In this document: in pieces, positions 5,402 to 59,108 of the stretch
How positions within the stretch are numbered: the first letter of the stretch is position 1
Layout: every line of letters starts with the position of its first letter
Origin: an uncultured Oscillospiraceae bacterium
GTDB lineage: Bacteria > Bacillota > Clostridia > Oscillospirales > Oscillospiraceae
NCBI GenBank assembly: GCA_947599875.1
Contig: CANQFV010000001.1
Span: 1-64,000, forward strand
Direction: 5' to 3'
DNA: 64,000 bases
The notes under the pieces: generated by a model
Seen by the model: only the letters and a program-made list of their open reading frames with translations
The model's database searches: none
What the model was told of the DNA's origin: nothing
Made by a program: the position numbers and the translations under genes

Positions 5402-5575
5402 TGTCGAAAAAGCCCTGCGGGCTTTTTCGACAGAGGGGAACGTGCGGGGAATATCTCTGAATTTTGCGAAATTCAGAGATATTCCCCTGCCGTCACGCTG
5501 TGCGCACGGCCCAGAGGGCCGTACACTTGCGTGACAAGAGGGATTTTTTCCGACGCACATGTCGCCGGAAAAAAT
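5402..5575 (-). repeat. Four-hairpin intergenic repeat, copy A
   Basis: Copy A lies in reverse orientation. From left to right it contains four structures. (4) A 13-bp stem (5402-5414 with 5420-5432), flanked by A and T runs. (3) A 19-bp perfect stem (5446-5464 with 5469-5487) with loop TGCG. (2) A two-tier arm, GTCACGC/GCGTGAC (5492-5498, 5529-5535) enclosing ACGGCCC/GGGCCGT. (1) A stem ATTTTTTCCG/CGGAAAAAAT (5543-5552, 5566-5575) whose loop includes CACATGT. Related copies lie at 31932, 37632 and 50435. This copy separates two convergent genes. Confidence 0.9.
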
Positions 5576-5602
5576 GTTGAAATTGAGTTTTTTGACAAAC
5601 TG

Positions 5603-5640
5603 AAAAAGATGGCAGGCACTTTCGTGCCTGCCATCTTTTT
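5603..5640. terminator. Bidirectional intrinsic terminator
   Basis: A perfect 17-bp stem (5603-5619 with 5624-5640) with loop TTTC, A-run on the left and T-run on the right. It lies between the convergent deacetylase and AraC genes and should stop transcription from both sides. The AraC stop codon overlaps its right edge. Confidence 0.9.
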
Positions 5641-9639: not shown

Positions 9640-9664
9640 CTGGCGAAAAAGGCCTAAAGGCCAC

Positions 9665-9829
9665 TGGCTTGAAAGGCCGCAGGGGCACGCTGGCTTGAAA
9701 GGCCACAGGAGTCTTCTGGCGCGGGAGCTTTCCGCGCCTCTCCTGTCCTGGCGGCAAGCCCCTGCGGCCTTCCAATGCCAATAGGACGCGGCAAGAGGGA
9801 TTTTTTGCGAGGCAAAGCACGGAGAAAGG
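9665..9829 (-). repeat. Four-hairpin intergenic repeat, internally deleted copy B
   Basis: Same orientation as copy A. The outer stem (9665-9686 with 9758-9780) matches the long outer stem of the copy at 37632, including TGGCTTGAAAGGCCGCAGG. The sequence then jumps directly to GACGCGGCAAGAGGGATTTTTT and half of hairpin 1. Arm 2 and hairpin 3 are missing, and hairpin 1 lacks its partner strand. TGGCTTGAAAGGCC is duplicated inside (9665 and 9691). It lies 3' of the GH127 gene in a 454-nt gap (9640-10093) with no coding content. Confidence 0.75.
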
Positions 9830-9863
9830 CGGCTTAAATCGTCCCCGGGGAGCCGGTGTTACA

Positions 9864-9914
9864 CGGGGACGGTTCTTTAGTCCCACCTGCGGTGTGACAA
9901 AAGAACCGTCCCCG
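9864..9914. repeat. GGGGACGGTTC palindrome (REP-like)
   Basis: A 15-bp perfect inverted repeat, CGGGGACGGTTCTTT (9864-9878) with its complement at 9900-9914, enclosing a smaller CACC/GGTG hairpin. The right arm and following bases (GTCCCCGCTGTCCCACCT) match the segment at 41-62 closely, so the two loci share one repeat family. Confidence 0.75.
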
Positions 9915-9985
9915 CTGTCCCACCTACTCAAAGGAACGGAAAAAGAGCGTTACCATCCATTCAATGCAGTTCGAGCGGCCCTTTC

Positions 9986-10030
9986 CGCACGTTCCCTTTA
10001 TTGGAAAAGCCCGCGGGGCTTTTTCGACAG
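9986..10030 (+). repeat. Fragment of the four-hairpin repeat
   Basis: CCGCACGTTCCCTT, then a stem GAAAAGCC/GGCTTTTTC (10004-10011, 10017-10025), then GACAGG. This is the 3' end (linker plus hairpin 4) of the element in the orientation opposite to copy B, about 160 nt away from it. No other parts are present. Confidence 0.65.
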
Positions 10031-10040
10031 GTTCAAAAGA

Positions 10041-29774: not shown

Positions 29775-31856
29775 ATGAGTGAAGAACTGGAAAAAGTCAT
29801 GCCCGGGTGGCACACCGAGGGCGTTCTGGGTTCAGGCGCCTTTGGGACGGTATATCTGGCGCGGCAGGACGACAAGGACGGAGACGGCGCCTTCTGCGCG
29901 CTGAAGGTCATCCGTGTCCCGCCCCAGAGAGAGGCGGTGGACAACGCCGTGAAGCTGGGGATCGGCCTGGATCTCCTGTCCACCTATTTTGGGAAATTTA
30001 AAAACGACCTCACCTGGGAGCTGACCATGTACAAGACGGTGAAATCCGTCCATCTGGCCCCGGTGGAGGAGTTTGCCGCCGTGGACTACGACGGCCCCGG
30101 CTGGACGGGCTACATCCGCACGGGGATCTACACTCCCATCGGCGTCTACTACGAGAAGACGCCGCCCACGCCGGAGGACGCCGCCCGGATGGGGCTGGAG
30201 CTGTCCTCGGCTCTGGAGACCCTGGAGCATTACGCCATGATCCACGGGGAGATCAAGCCGGAGAACGTGATGGTCACGGACGCCGGGAGCTTCGTCCTCA
30301 CCGATCTCGGCCTGCGCCGCTGCCTGGAGAAGGCGGGAAGCGGGATTTTCGGCACGGAGGAGGACGGCTTTGAGGCCCCGGAGCTGGGCCAGGACAGAAC
30401 CTGCACCGCCCAGACGGACATCTACTCCCTGGGCGCCCTGATGTGCTGGGCCGCCAACGGCGGCTCCATGCCCCCCAACCGGGATCCCGGCCTGATCCGG
30501 GATATAGACCCGGCTCTGGAGGCCGTGATCCGCAAGGCGATGGCCGCGGACCCGGCTCAGAGGTATACCTCCGCTTCCCAGCTCCGGCAGGAGCTGGAGC
30601 GCACCGGCCTTGGGAAAAAGCCGGCCCGCCGCGCAATGGCCGCGGCCGCCGCGTTTGACGCGGTGAAGCGCAACGGCGGCGCCGTGAAGGCCCGCCCCGC
30701 CGCCCAGGAGCGGCCCGCCCCCCGCGCCGCGGCGCCCGATAAGCCCGCCGCCCCCCGCGGGGAGGAGGAGATGCCTGCCGCGGACACCGTGACGCAGAAG
30801 CCCCGGAGATCCGTCGCCGGTATCGCCATCGGCGTGATCGCGGCGCTGCTCATCATCGCCGTCGTGGCCGCCATCTGGCTGCCCGGCAGGAACGGGGATC
30901 CCGGCAAGGAGGACGACGGCCCCAACCACGGGATCATCTACCCGAACCCCAATGAAGAGGATCAGAACCCTAATGATGATGATCAGAACCCCAATGACGG
31001 GGAGCAGACCCCCGGCGAGGATCAGAACCCCAATGATGGGGAGCAGAATCCCGGCGATGATCAGAACCCCAATGACGGGGAGCAGAATCCCGGCGAGGAT
31101 CAGAACCCCAATGATGGGGAGCAGAACCCCGGCGAGGATCAGAACCCCGGTGGGGAGCAGACCCCCGGTGAGGAACAGAACCCCGGTGGAGAGCAGAATC
31201 CCGGCGAGGAGCAGAATCCCGGCGGACAGGACGATGAGCCGGATACGCCCACAAGGCCGGAGGCGGTGAACAACGACATCCTGTTCCCCTCCGACACAAA
31301 GCTCATCACCCGTGACGACTTAGAGGGGAAGACCAGATCCCAGGTGAGTATGCTCATCAACGAGATCTACGCCCGCCACGGATACATCTTCGGGAAGGGC
31401 GGCGAGACCCAGACATACTTCAACTCCCAGAAGTGGTACACGCCGGTGACGGACGACGCCAGCAAGGTGACGCCGCTCTTTAACGCCACCGAGAACGCCA
31501 ACATCAAGACCCTCACCGACTACCAGCGGGAGAAGGGCTGGCGCGGCGGCGGCACGACCTCCAAGCCCTCCGAGCCGGAGGAGAACACCTACATATTCCC
31601 CTCTGACACCACGCTGGTGACCAGGGCGGATCTGGAGGGCAAGACCCAGCGCGAGGTGACGCTGATGCTCAACGAGATCTTCGCCCGCCACGGGTACATC
31701 TTCTCCACCGACTACCTGAAGGAGTACTTCGAGAGCCAGGCCTGGTACAAGCCGGTGACAAACTCCGCCTCCGTGGTCACCAAGGCCTTCAACGACATCG
31801 AGCAGGCCAACTCCAGCTTTATCAACAAGTACATGCACGAGATGGGCTGGAGATAA
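29775..31856 (+). CDS. Membrane Ser/Thr kinase-like protein with two YARHG domains
   Basis: A 693-residue single-pass membrane protein. Residues 10-280 are a protein-kinase fold: G-loop GSGAFGTVY (19-27), Lys44 in ALKVI, and DLG at 177-179. The catalytic loop reads HGEIKPEN (157-164), so the normally invariant catalytic Asp is Glu159. Activity is therefore doubtful. A basic and Ala/Pro-rich linker and one membrane helix (about 348-371) follow. Outside lies a repeat tract of NPNDGEQNPGEDQ-like units (about 390-485), then two YARHG domains (YARHGYIFG and FARHGYIFS, around 530 and 635), extracellular modules of unknown ligand. It looks like a PknB-style receptor. A 50-nt gap separates it from polC. 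Confidence 0.9.
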   Translation: MSEELEKVMPGWHTEGVLGSGAFGTVYLARQDDKDGDGAFCALKVIRVPPQREAVDNAVKLGIGLDLLSTYFGKFKNDLTWELTMYKTVKSVHLAPVEEFAAVDYDGPGWTGYIRTGIYTPIGVYYEKTPPTPEDAARMGLELSSALETLEHYAMIHGEIKPENVMVTDAGSFVLTDLGLRRCLEKAGSGIFGTEEDGFEAPELGQDRTCTAQTDIYSLGALMCWAANGGSMPPNRDPGLIRDIDPALEAVIRKAMAADPAQRYTSASQLRQELERTGLGKKPARRAMAAAAAFDAVKRNGGAVKARPAAQERPAPRAAAPDKPAAPRGEEEMPAADTVTQKPRRSVAGIAIGVIAALLIIAVVAAIWLPGRNGDPGKEDDGPNHGIIYPNPNEEDQNPNDDDQNPNDGEQTPGEDQNPNDGEQNPGDDQNPNDGEQNPGEDQNPNDGEQNPGEDQNPGGEQTPGEEQNPGGEQNPGEEQNPGGQDDEPDTPTRPEAVNNDILFPSDTKLITRDDLEGKTRSQVSMLINEIYARHGYIFGKGGETQTYFNSQKWYTPVTDDASKVTPLFNATENANIKTLTDYQREKGWRGGGTTSKPSEPEENTYIFPSDTTLVTRADLEGKTQREVTLMLNEIFARHGYIFSTDYLKEYFESQAWYKPVTNSASVVTKAFNDIEQANSSFINKYMHEMGWR
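30944..31229 (+). repeat. In-frame tandem repeat in the kinase linker
   Basis: Repeats built of 6- and 7-codon units such as CAGAACCCCAATGACGGGGA and GAGCAGAATCCCGGCGAGGA encode the acidic Pro/Asn/Gly linker. Copies differ mainly at third positions, so selection on the protein is likely. Length changes between strains are expected. Confidence 0.85.
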
Positions 31857-31905: not shown

Positions 31906-31931
31906 GCATCTCAAAAAATCTCAAATTCAAT

Positions 31932-32105
31932 ATTTTTCCCAAGGACATGTGCCTTGGGAAAAATCCCTTATGTCACGCAAGTGTGCGGCCCTGCGGGCCG
32001 TGCGCGCAGCGTGACGGCAGGGGAATTTTTCTGAATTTCGCAAAATTCAGAAAAATTTCCCGCACGCATCCCCATTGGTTAAAAAGGCCGCAGGCCTTTT
32101 TAACC
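31932..32105 (+). repeat. Four-hairpin intergenic repeat, copy C
   Basis: Forward orientation. (1) A 13-bp stem ATTTTTCCCAAGG (31932-31944) with its complement (31952-31964) and loop ACATGTG. Linker TCCCTTAT. (2) Arm GTCACGC/GCGTGAC (31972-31978, 32009-32015) enclosing CGGCCC/GGGCCG. (3) A stem of 18 bp with one bulge (32021-32038 with 32043-32061) and loop CGCA. (4) A 13-bp stem GGTTAAAAAGGCC/GGCCTTTTTAACC (32077-32105), a likely bidirectional terminator. It fills the gap between the convergent kinase and DUF362 genes. Confidence 0.92.
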
Positions 32106-32108
32106 AGG

Positions 32109-35983: not shown

Positions 35984-37621
<1,638 letters not shown>

Positions 37622-37631
37622 AAACTAAAAC

Positions 37632-37863
37632 TGGCTTGAAAGGCCGCAGGGATTTGACCGTGCGGAGGCTTTCAGCGGCTTTTCGAGCTTTTGCGTAACT
37701 CCTGCGGCCTTTCAATGCCAAGGGGACGCGTGCGAAAGACCCGGCGTGAATTCTGCGGAATTCACGCCGGGTCTTTCTGCCGCCGCGCTGCAGCGCACGC
37801 CCAAGGGCGCACGTTTGCGCGGCAAGAGGGATTTTTTCCAAGGCACATGTCCTTGAAAAAAAT
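37632..37863 (-). repeat. Four-hairpin intergenic repeat, copy D
   Basis: Reverse orientation, the longest copy. (4) An outer stem of about 19 bp (37632-37650 with 37701-37720) with a 50-nt loop. (3) A 19-bp perfect stem (37735-37753 with 37758-37776) with loop TGCG. (2) Arm GCCGCGC/GCGCGGC (37782-37788, 37817-37823) enclosing CGCCC/GGGCG. (1) A stem ATTTTTTCCAAGG (37831-37843) with 37851-37863, loop CACATGT, one mismatch. It starts 11 nt past groEL. Confidence 0.9.
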
Positions 37864-37919
37864 AATTGAAATGGGGGGAGCGGGGACGGGGCTTGTCCGG
37901 TGTCTGTAAGAGTCCCCCT

Positions 37920-50349: not shown

Positions 50350-50434
50350 CCCTCCAAATAAGAAAGAAGAAATCGATAACCCCTACGCCGATTCAAATAT
50401 CGCATAACTCCAATTTCCCGCTCCCCCATCCAAT

Positions 50435-50628
50435 ATTTTTTGCGGGGCTTTGCCTCGCAAAAAATCCCTTTTGCCGCGCAAGTGTGCGGCCCTTCGGGCC
50501 GTGCGCGCAGCGCGGCAGGAAGAGGGGGCGTGAATTTCGCAAAATTCACGCCCCCTCTTCCGCACGTTCCCTTGGCAGAAAAAGGCTGGATGCTTTCTCT
50601 CCGGAGAAAGCATCCAGCCTTTTTCGCC
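50435..50628 (+). repeat. Four-hairpin intergenic repeat, copy E
   Basis: Forward orientation. (1) A stem ATTTTTTGCGGGGC (50435-50448) with 50452-50465; one G-T wobble, loop TTT. (2) Arm TGCCGCGC/GCGCGGCA (50472-50479, 50510-50517) enclosing CGGCCC/GGGCCG. (3) A 20-bp perfect stem (50518-50537 with 50542-50561), loop CGCA. (4) A 22-bp perfect stem (50578-50599 with 50604-50625), flanked by A and T runs. It occupies most of the 383-nt gap between the ECF partner gene and smc, which otherwise holds only the smc promoter. Confidence 0.92.
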
Positions 50629-50650
50629 AGCCGAATTAACAAATAATTCA

Positions 50651-57371: not shown

Positions 57372-59108
57372 ATGAAGCTCTTCGGTTCAAGCAAAGCATC
57401 AAAGCACAGCGGCGGCGCCAGGCCCCAGGCCTCCGGCGGGAACAGGCGTCCCGCCTCCGGCTCCGCCCAGCACCCCTCAACAAGGTCTGCCTCCGGCGGC
57501 GCATCCCACAAGAGGAAGAAGAAGGGGATGCCCGCGGGTGTCAGGGCGCTTGTGGTGGTGTTGGCTGTTGTGATCTCCCTGGCGGCGGTGGGGGCCGTGT
57601 GGCTCAAGTCCGCCAAGCCCCCGAAGGTCACGACGGACATGAATGACCCCCTGAAGGACAACCCCCCGGACGACTCATCACAGGACGGCAGCGGCGGGGG
57701 ACACAGCTCCTTCGGCGGCTCCCTGGGCGACGACCCCACGGTGACGGACGCCCCCGGCGATGAGGAGCAGGAGAATGTCCCCGCCTCCCGCGTCCCCGGC
57801 GTGTACACATTCCTTGTGGCGGCCCGGGACAAGGTCGGCTCCAATACCGACGCCATCATGGTGGCCAAGTTCGACACGAACGACTACTCCCTGAACGTGG
57901 TGAGCATCCCCCGGGACACCCTGGTGAACGTCTCCACCCGCAACAAGAAGGTGAATGCCCTCTACGCCAACGGCAAGGAGGAGGGGCTTGTCAACGGCAT
58001 CGCCAACCTCATCGGGTATAAGCCGGACTTCTACGGCATCATCCGCCTGGACGCCATTGAAAAGATCGTGGACGCCATCGGCGGGGTGAAGTACAACGTG
58101 CCCCAGAACATGGACTACGACGACCCTGCTCAGAATCTGCACATCCACTTCAAGAAGGGCCTCCAGACGCTGAACGGTGAGCAGGCGGTGGAGTACATGC
58201 GCTACCGCAAGGGCTACGCCAACCAGGATCTGGGCCGCATCCACGCCCAGCAGGAGTTTTTGACCACAATGGCCAGCCAGATCCTGGCCAATAAGTCAAA
58301 GGTGCCCGTCACTACCCTGGTGAATATCGTGGTCAAGGACGTGAACACCAGTCTGGGCCTCAGCGAGTGTACCTGGTTTGCCAAGGAGCTTTTGAAGATG
58401 GACGCCGAGAACATCCACTTCTACACCATGCCCGGCGAGTGGTACGGCAATATCAAAGGCTCCGGCTATCAGGTCATCGACACGGAGGAGTGGATCCGTA
58501 TGGCCAATGATTACCTGAATCCCTTCGATAAGGATCTGCAGGAGAAGAACTTCGACATCATCTCCGTCAACTCCTCCAACAGGCTCTACGCCACCAGCGG
58601 CTATATCCGCACGGAGTCCTGGCGGAACAACACCTCCATCAAGAGCGGGACTACTACCACCACCAAGCCCTCTACCCCCTCCACCCCGTCCACCCCCTCC
58701 ACCCCGGAAACCCCGTCCACGGAGGAACCGGGCGGTGAGGAGACCCCCGGCGGTGAGGAGACCCCCGGCGGCGAAGTGACTCCCGGTGGAGAGGAGAATC
58801 CCGGTGGTGAGGAGATCCCCGGCGGCGAGGAGAATCCCGGCGGGGAAATGACCCCCGGCGGTGAGACGACACCCGGTGGGGAGGAGACCCCCGGCGGTGA
58901 GACGACTCCCGGTGGGGAGACGACCCCCGGCGGCGAGGAGAATCCCGGTGGGGAGGAGAACCCCGGCGATGAGACGACCCCCGGTGGGGAGGAGAATCCC
59001 GGCGGCCAGGACGATCCCGGCCAGCGGCCGGAGACCGGCGGCACGGCGGCGCAGGGGGAGGACGACCCTCCCGCCCAGGCCCCCGACGCGGGGGAAAACG
59101 CCGCGTGA
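57372..59108 (+). CDS. LCP-family (LytR-CpsA-Psr) wall-polymer transferase
   Basis: A 578-residue membrane-anchored protein with a basic cytosolic start, one membrane helix (about 57-75), an acidic linker, and an LCP domain (about 145-400). The domain has NTDAIMVAKFDTND, VSIPRDTLVNV and YMRYRKGYANQDLGRIHAQQ, including the conserved Arg and Asp residues that bind the polyprenyl phosphate. LCP enzymes attach anionic polymers to peptidoglycan outside the cell. The last 140 residues are a low-complexity tail of PGGEET/ENPGGE units. It starts 3 nt after nadD-yqeK, and rsfS follows, so it interrupts the usual yqeK-rsfS order. Confidence 0.95.
   Translation: MKLFGSSKASKHSGGARPQASGGNRRPASGSAQHPSTRSASGGASHKRKKKGMPAGVRALVVVLAVVISLAAVGAVWLKSAKPPKVTTDMNDPLKDNPPDDSSQDGSGGGHSSFGGSLGDDPTVTDAPGDEEQENVPASRVPGVYTFLVAARDKVGSNTDAIMVAKFDTNDYSLNVVSIPRDTLVNVSTRNKKVNALYANGKEEGLVNGIANLIGYKPDFYGIIRLDAIEKIVDAIGGVKYNVPQNMDYDDPAQNLHIHFKKGLQTLNGEQAVEYMRYRKGYANQDLGRIHAQQEFLTTMASQILANKSKVPVTTLVNIVVKDVNTSLGLSECTWFAKELLKMDAENIHFYTMPGEWYGNIKGSGYQVIDTEEWIRMANDYLNPFDKDLQEKNFDIISVNSSNRLYATSGYIRTESWRNNTSIKSGTTTTTKPSTPSTPSTPSTPETPSTEEPGGEETPGGEETPGGEVTPGGEENPGGEEIPGGEENPGGEMTPGGETTPGGEETPGGETTPGGETTPGGEENPGGEENPGDETTPGGEENPGGQDDPGQRPETGGTAAQGEDDPPAQAPDAGENAA
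58727..59020 (+). repeat. In-frame tandem repeat in the LCP tail
   Basis: Repeats of 5 to 6 codons such as CCCGGCGGTGAGGAGA encode ETPGGE and ENPGGE units. The composition is close to that of the kinase linker at 30944-31229, although the two genes are unrelated. Copy number is likely to vary between strains. Confidence 0.85.

Follow-up and report, generated by a model that had tools for sequence, protein, structure and literature searches.

The staphylococcal elements IS1272 and TnSha1, both of the IS1182 family, target DNA hairpins of unrelated sequence, several of which are confirmed terminators, and their insertion deletes the hairpin wholly or partly, without duplication (PMC5678879, PMC4923244). 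In one branch of the model drawn by Wan et al., the joins are made at the 5′ feet of the cruciform and would leave the entire stem-loop duplicated (PMC5678879, PMC4923244). Among small intergenic elements, SPRITE resembles rho-independent terminators, and SPRITE, BOX and RUP cluster and insert into one another, according to a review (PMC10969869).

Here, we describe a four-hairpin intergenic repeat from an uncultured Oscillospiraceae bacterium. Its sequence makes it very probable that this repeat is a MITE, inserted by an IS1182-type DDE transposase at terminator hairpins and duplicating the hairpin in the process.

Copies in the window and across the genus

The window is the whole analysed stretch of 64,000 nucleotides. 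The initial annotation had placed four full copies in it, at 5402-5575, 31932-32105, 37632-37863 and 50435-50628, with a common plan of hairpins 1 to 4 and their linkers. All are present at these places and align over hairpins 1 to 4 (Table 1). A covariance model finds exactly these copies in the 64-kb window and no fifth, with scores of 127-163 bits and E-values of 4e-40 to 5e-31. Hairpin 4 is variable in length, at about 30 to 90 nt. The claim that copies occur in both orientations and only between genes also holds well, as both strands are used and, genome-wide, just 5 of the 140 copies extend into a gene call. The limits given at first capture the four-hairpin plan, but intact elements reach past both outer hairpins, 1 and 4, as far as a pair of terminal inverted repeats, which had gone unnoticed.

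Table 1. Four-hairpin copies and associated features in the window
Feature	Position	Strand	Details
Copy A	5403-5602	-	covariance model, 162.6 bits
Copy A, hairpin 4	5403-5432	-	
Copy A, hairpins 3, 2 and 1	inside 5441-5578	-	core
Copy A, terminal inverted repeat	5588-5602	-	hairpin 1 side, CAGTTTGTCAAAAAA
Terminator-like hairpin	5603-5640		AAAAAGATGGCAGGCAC-TTTC-GTGCCTGCCATCTTTTT; adjoins the inverted repeat of copy A on the outside
Degraded mosaic	9640-10040		hairpin-4-like ends CTGGCGAAAAAGG, CTGGCTTGAAAGGCC; further end GGAAAAGCCCGCGGGGCTTTTTCGACAGG; sequence and covariance model
Mosaic, hairpin-1-like piece	about 9797-9827		
Copy B (singled out by the initial annotation)	31929-32106	+	covariance model, 161 bits
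Copy B, hairpin 1	31933-31963	+	
Copy B, hairpin 2	about 31971-32016	+	
Copy B, hairpin 3	about 32017-32063	+	
Copy B, linker			CGCACGCATCCCC
Copy B, hairpin 4	32077-32105	+	stem GGTTAAAAAGGCC/GGCCTTTTTAACC
Copy C	37632-37866	-	covariance model, 127 bits
Copy C, core	37729-37866	-	
Copy C, hairpin 4	37632-37721	-	long; end CTGGCTTGAAAGGCCGC
Copy D	50432-50630	+	covariance model, 127.9 bits
Copy D, core	50432-50566	+	
Copy D, hairpin 4	50574-50629	+	GGCAGAAAAAGG...CCTTTTTCGCC

The four copies differ in their ends. Copy A is intact on the hairpin 1 side and lacks the outermost bases on the hairpin 4 side; the terminator-like hairpin next to it occupies the position of a target hairpin, with the second copy missing on the opposite side. 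Copy B, located between two genes that converge on it and end at 31856 (+) and 32109 (-), has degenerate ends, and no hairpin duplication was seen in its flanks. Copies C and D are of the kind without inverted repeats; copy C stands directly behind a groEL-like gene (ending at 37621) and is followed by filler repeats of the type found in mosaic islands. The covariance model detects no full copy in the degraded mosaic. Elsewhere in the window, long open reading frames contain 18-bp tandem repeats (30939-31261 and 58691-59077) that are related in sequence between both places.

A search of the genome and its relatives had been proposed with the initial annotation. With a covariance model of hairpins 1 to 3 (built from 32 copies, with 138 positions and 49 pairs), the 2.73-Mb genome yields at least 150 copies, all with E ≤ 6e-19; the number is a lower bound, and the stretches around the matches gave 155, a few of them degraded or in doubly covered sequence. 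Matches are also present in 30 of the 33 remaining genus genomes. None of three genomes from other genera of the family matched, and 1 of 23 from other families of the order gave weak matches. Among the exact-core matches listed, the named records are all uncultured Oscillospiraceae MAGs with isolate names of the form 'Lapin-...', which suggests a rabbit gut source. The phage and plasmid collections contained no match to the repeat. The annotation had recognised no known RNA family, in agreement with zero Rfam matches in the window at gathering score; at permissive thresholds, copy B gave only sub-threshold chance hairpin matches, mostly to microRNA models. The weak relatives (L088 1501-1633 in G042, a member of another family, and L083-L085 and L089) keep hairpin 1 with a loop of ACATGTG or GCGTGTAC, and several have an upstream CGCAGAGTTCGC hairpin; they possibly represent an older, wider family.

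Ends, target hairpins and parent elements

Intact copies are non-coding, 202-210 bp long and bounded by the terminal inverted repeats CAGTTTGTCAAAAAACTC / CAGCCTGTCGAAAAAGCC. The inverted repeat pattern has 35 matches in the own genome, with pairs 205-206 bp apart, and a reversed-pattern control has none. Adjoining both ends is a direct repeat that forms a hairpin of its own, and its sequence differs from locus to locus. Across all loci analysed, such a repeat touches both ends in 47 of the 89 elements that have both, compared with 1 of 1766 shuffled pairings; when the own genome is taken by itself, a repeat score of ≥14 is reached by 11 of its 138 copies (control, 1 of 409). Nearly all duplications are 15-36 bp long and fold as complete hairpins, many of them identical on both sides. 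Where an insertion has both a duplication and a nearby gene, it lies at a gene 3′ end in 35 of 37 cases. At one locus (L287, 733-1032) a 300-bp element is flanked by hairpins with reverse-complement loops, as if one had been flipped. The gene at the C2 insertion site is carried by few relatives.

The ends of the repeat recur in autonomous elements. Matches to the IS1182 transposase family (NCBIfam NF033551) are found in 16 of 34 genus genomes, eight of them over the curated cut-off. Seven complete IS1182-family elements of 1496-1648 bp, which form two groups about 42% identical in protein, occur in genus-mates; they are bounded by ends of this kind, and each lies between two perfect copies of a complete hairpin (21-31 bp). 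The element at L153 ends in CAGTTTGTCAAAAAA on both sides, a 15/15 match to the hairpin 1-side end of the MITE, and its transposase, with DUF772 (PF05598) and DDE (PF13751) domains, scores 384.6 bits against a cut-off of 270 (NF033551). In a shortened variant (L086, in G029), the terminal sequences are those of the second group (GTCGACAAA), and the flanking hairpin is duplicated.

It is the inverted repeats and hairpin duplications, common to the repeat and its parents, that lead us to read it as an IS1182-ended MITE at terminator hairpins. Intact copies are too short to hold a transposase gene, the parents being 1.5-1.65 kb in size, and the IS1182-type transposase of a parent would mobilise them in trans. 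This enzyme would act on the target hairpin, presumably by a chemistry that copies the whole hairpin to each side. The evidence on movement consists of sequence traces. Three observations weigh against the MITE reading: the interior is conserved, which a MITE does not need; the hairpin 1-side end is recognisable in only about 30 of 140 own copies; and no IS1182 transposase was found in the own genome. The family had been annotated as of unknown nature, which no longer applies to the intact copies, since these read as MITEs with IS1182-family ends. The suggestion of a non-autonomous element moved in trans was right in essence, given those ends and the hairpin duplications; as to its proposed transfer as single-stranded DNA, the traces suggest instead a DDE enzyme that acts on target hairpins.

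About 110 of the 140 own copies (roughly 75-80%) have no clear hairpin 1-side end; many of these terminate on the hairpin 4 side in CTGGCGAAAAAGG or CTGGCTTGAAAGGC and join, on the hairpin 1 side, filler made of other hairpin repeats. They may be older, eroded or rearranged derivatives, and a common origin with the intact copies is likely because both have the same interior. A possible, though distinctly less favoured, alternative is that the copies without inverted repeats, which are the majority and include C and D, belong to a separate element or island family sharing the four-hairpin module, taken up from it by the IS1182 MITE or the reverse. Such a family would suit the arrangement of close pairs (<1.5 kb apart), 12 of 14 of which face outward around non-coding filler, and also the outer end CTGGCG/CTGGCTT, which is unlike CAGCCTGTCG, and the island borders read, where no hairpin duplication was seen. 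It fits less well with the identical interior, with a hairpin 4-side end that resembles the IS1182 end except for the outermost bases, and with the existence of intermediate ends (L009, L014 and L015). The idea that outward-facing pairs enclose a transposase gene was discarded, the filler being non-coding. Non-coding mosaic islands of ∼1 kb (L105 1137-2055, L097 303-1403 and L106 1159-2035) have an outward-facing four-hairpin copy at either border and, in between, several other kinds of repeated hairpin.

The conserved interior and its genomic context

Pairing in the interior is conserved far above chance. Across 146 distinct own-genome copies, 98.5% of pair cells are standard (83.4% in column shuffles), the covariation score is 0.438 (0.151 in shuffles) and 30 pairs show two-sided changes; these counts are not independent, because the copies share descent. 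Hairpin 3 changes from copy to copy, nearly without intermediate states, and shows no strand preference (G-U 20, A-C 18), as expected for a DNA palindrome. Hairpin 2 keeps U-G pairs on one strand, and the RNA of the + strand is the more stable of the two in 133 of the 139 own copies and in 27 of the 28 from other genomes, all related by descent; the strand bias of hairpins 1 and 2 in the own genome comes from five column pairs. Template switching that alters both sides in concert was considered for hairpin 3 and for the duplications that have diverged at C2 and C20; it is not claimed because most differences between duplication copies are one-sided.

We suggest only tentatively that the interior is a working part of the element, either as a strand-specific RNA or single-stranded DNA structure for IS1182 targeting or transposition, with the one-stranded U-G pairs of hairpin 2 retained in different species, or as a means of making insertions harmless. 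If this is true, every insertion would turn one terminator hairpin into six, all new possible targets, and the element would breed hairpins and build mosaic islands.

The strong covariation, the one-sided U-G pairs with the more stable + strand, and the terminator-like hairpin 4 would also suit a structured non-coding RNA with its end at hairpin 4, either a small RNA or a 3′ RNA, that is kept and spread for host regulation. We consider this unlikely in view of the inverted repeats and hairpin duplications, which are traces of a transposon, and of the lack of strand bias in hairpin 3. Furthermore, no promoter-like site was found around copy B and the hairpin 1 side has no gene-end preference in the own genome (58 versus 54), so that no steady source of transcription is seen. 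An RNA-only reading of the G-U bias is weakened by the balance in hairpin 3 and by the few column pairs involved; for hairpin 2 an RNA reading may still apply, because the bias recurs in other species.

In 115 of 136 own copies, the hairpin 4 side is turned toward a gene 3′ end, and the hairpin 1-3 core ends at a median distance of 69 nt from the stop codon. With an A-tract, a GC stem and a T-tract, hairpin 4 has the sequence make-up of a bidirectional terminator, and it plausibly acts as one beside stop codons. This would probably make insertion behind a gene tolerable and favour retention, copies being kept because hairpin 4 ends the neighbouring gene. Between tandem genes, hairpin 4 points toward the gene end in 46 standing copies versus 13; an origin of this bias in targeting is not claimed, the ratio among copies with a target duplication being 10 versus 5 (p=0.30, not significant).

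A comparison of filled and empty sites, also suggested at the outset, is available behind groEL, the site of copy C, where different species have a full element, a remnant or the native terminator only. Three of these sites share their downstream promoter: L181 (G012) and L185 (G019), which are empty, and L182 (G001), which has a remnant, consisting of hairpins 4 and 1, between the stop codon and a terminator of the same kind as theirs. Also behind groEL, a four-hairpin copy at L193 (G031) seems to be split between hairpins 2 and 1 by a repeat starting ATACTAATATCC, which is found at other loci too.

Finally, the high copy number, palindromic structure, extragenic position and mosaic islands recall REP/BIME-like palindromes, which a Y1 (RAYT) transposase mobilises in the form of single-stranded DNA, an explanation we regard as highly improbable: the locus of the only Y1_Tnp (Y1/HUH) gene of the genome has other, GGACGGTTCTTT hairpin repeats and no four-hairpin copy, and Y1 transposition would not be expected to leave target duplications of such length. 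A different hairpin repeat, GGGACGGTTCTTT(A/T)GTC with its inverted partner (window 9866-9912; L309 845-1800), surrounds that gene; it has 74 sites in 297 kb, is frequent in islands, and probably represents a REP-like family served by a RAYT-type transposase of its own.

Comparison with described elements

Targeting of hairpins by IS1182 elements is already known, with published cases that delete the hairpin. What appears to be new is the outcome read here from the sequences, duplication of the whole hairpin, which has been published only as a model. There are dozens of such natural insertions, many with identical duplications, in which the target hairpin is what has been duplicated, regardless of how long it is or how it reads. 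They would make the cruciform-foot model of IS1182 transposition, which has existed only as a drawing, directly testable, with a DDE transposase that reads DNA shape. The MITE reading would also explain the origin of many intergenic hairpins of this uncultured gut genus, through a mobile element that inserts at terminators and seems to bring one along itself.

The four-hairpin elements share with IS1272 and TnSha1 an IS1182-family transposase and hairpin targets; the hairpin is deleted there and duplicated whole here, and the two papers describe no MITE derivative (PMC5678879, PMC4923244). Within the family defined by NF033551, with transposases in eight genus-mate genomes, the repeat would be a derivative without a transposase gene. 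SPRITE, BOX and RUP of Streptococcus pneumoniae are likewise small, non-coding and intergenic, but differ in sequence and host, and the passages considered make no mention of a hairpin-length target duplication (PMC10969869). REP/BIME sequences with RAYT are similarly palindromic, extragenic, mosaic and high in copy number (PMC2817692); in contrast to these, the four-hairpin elements are bounded by terminal inverted repeats and long hairpin duplications, and their parent is of the DDE type.
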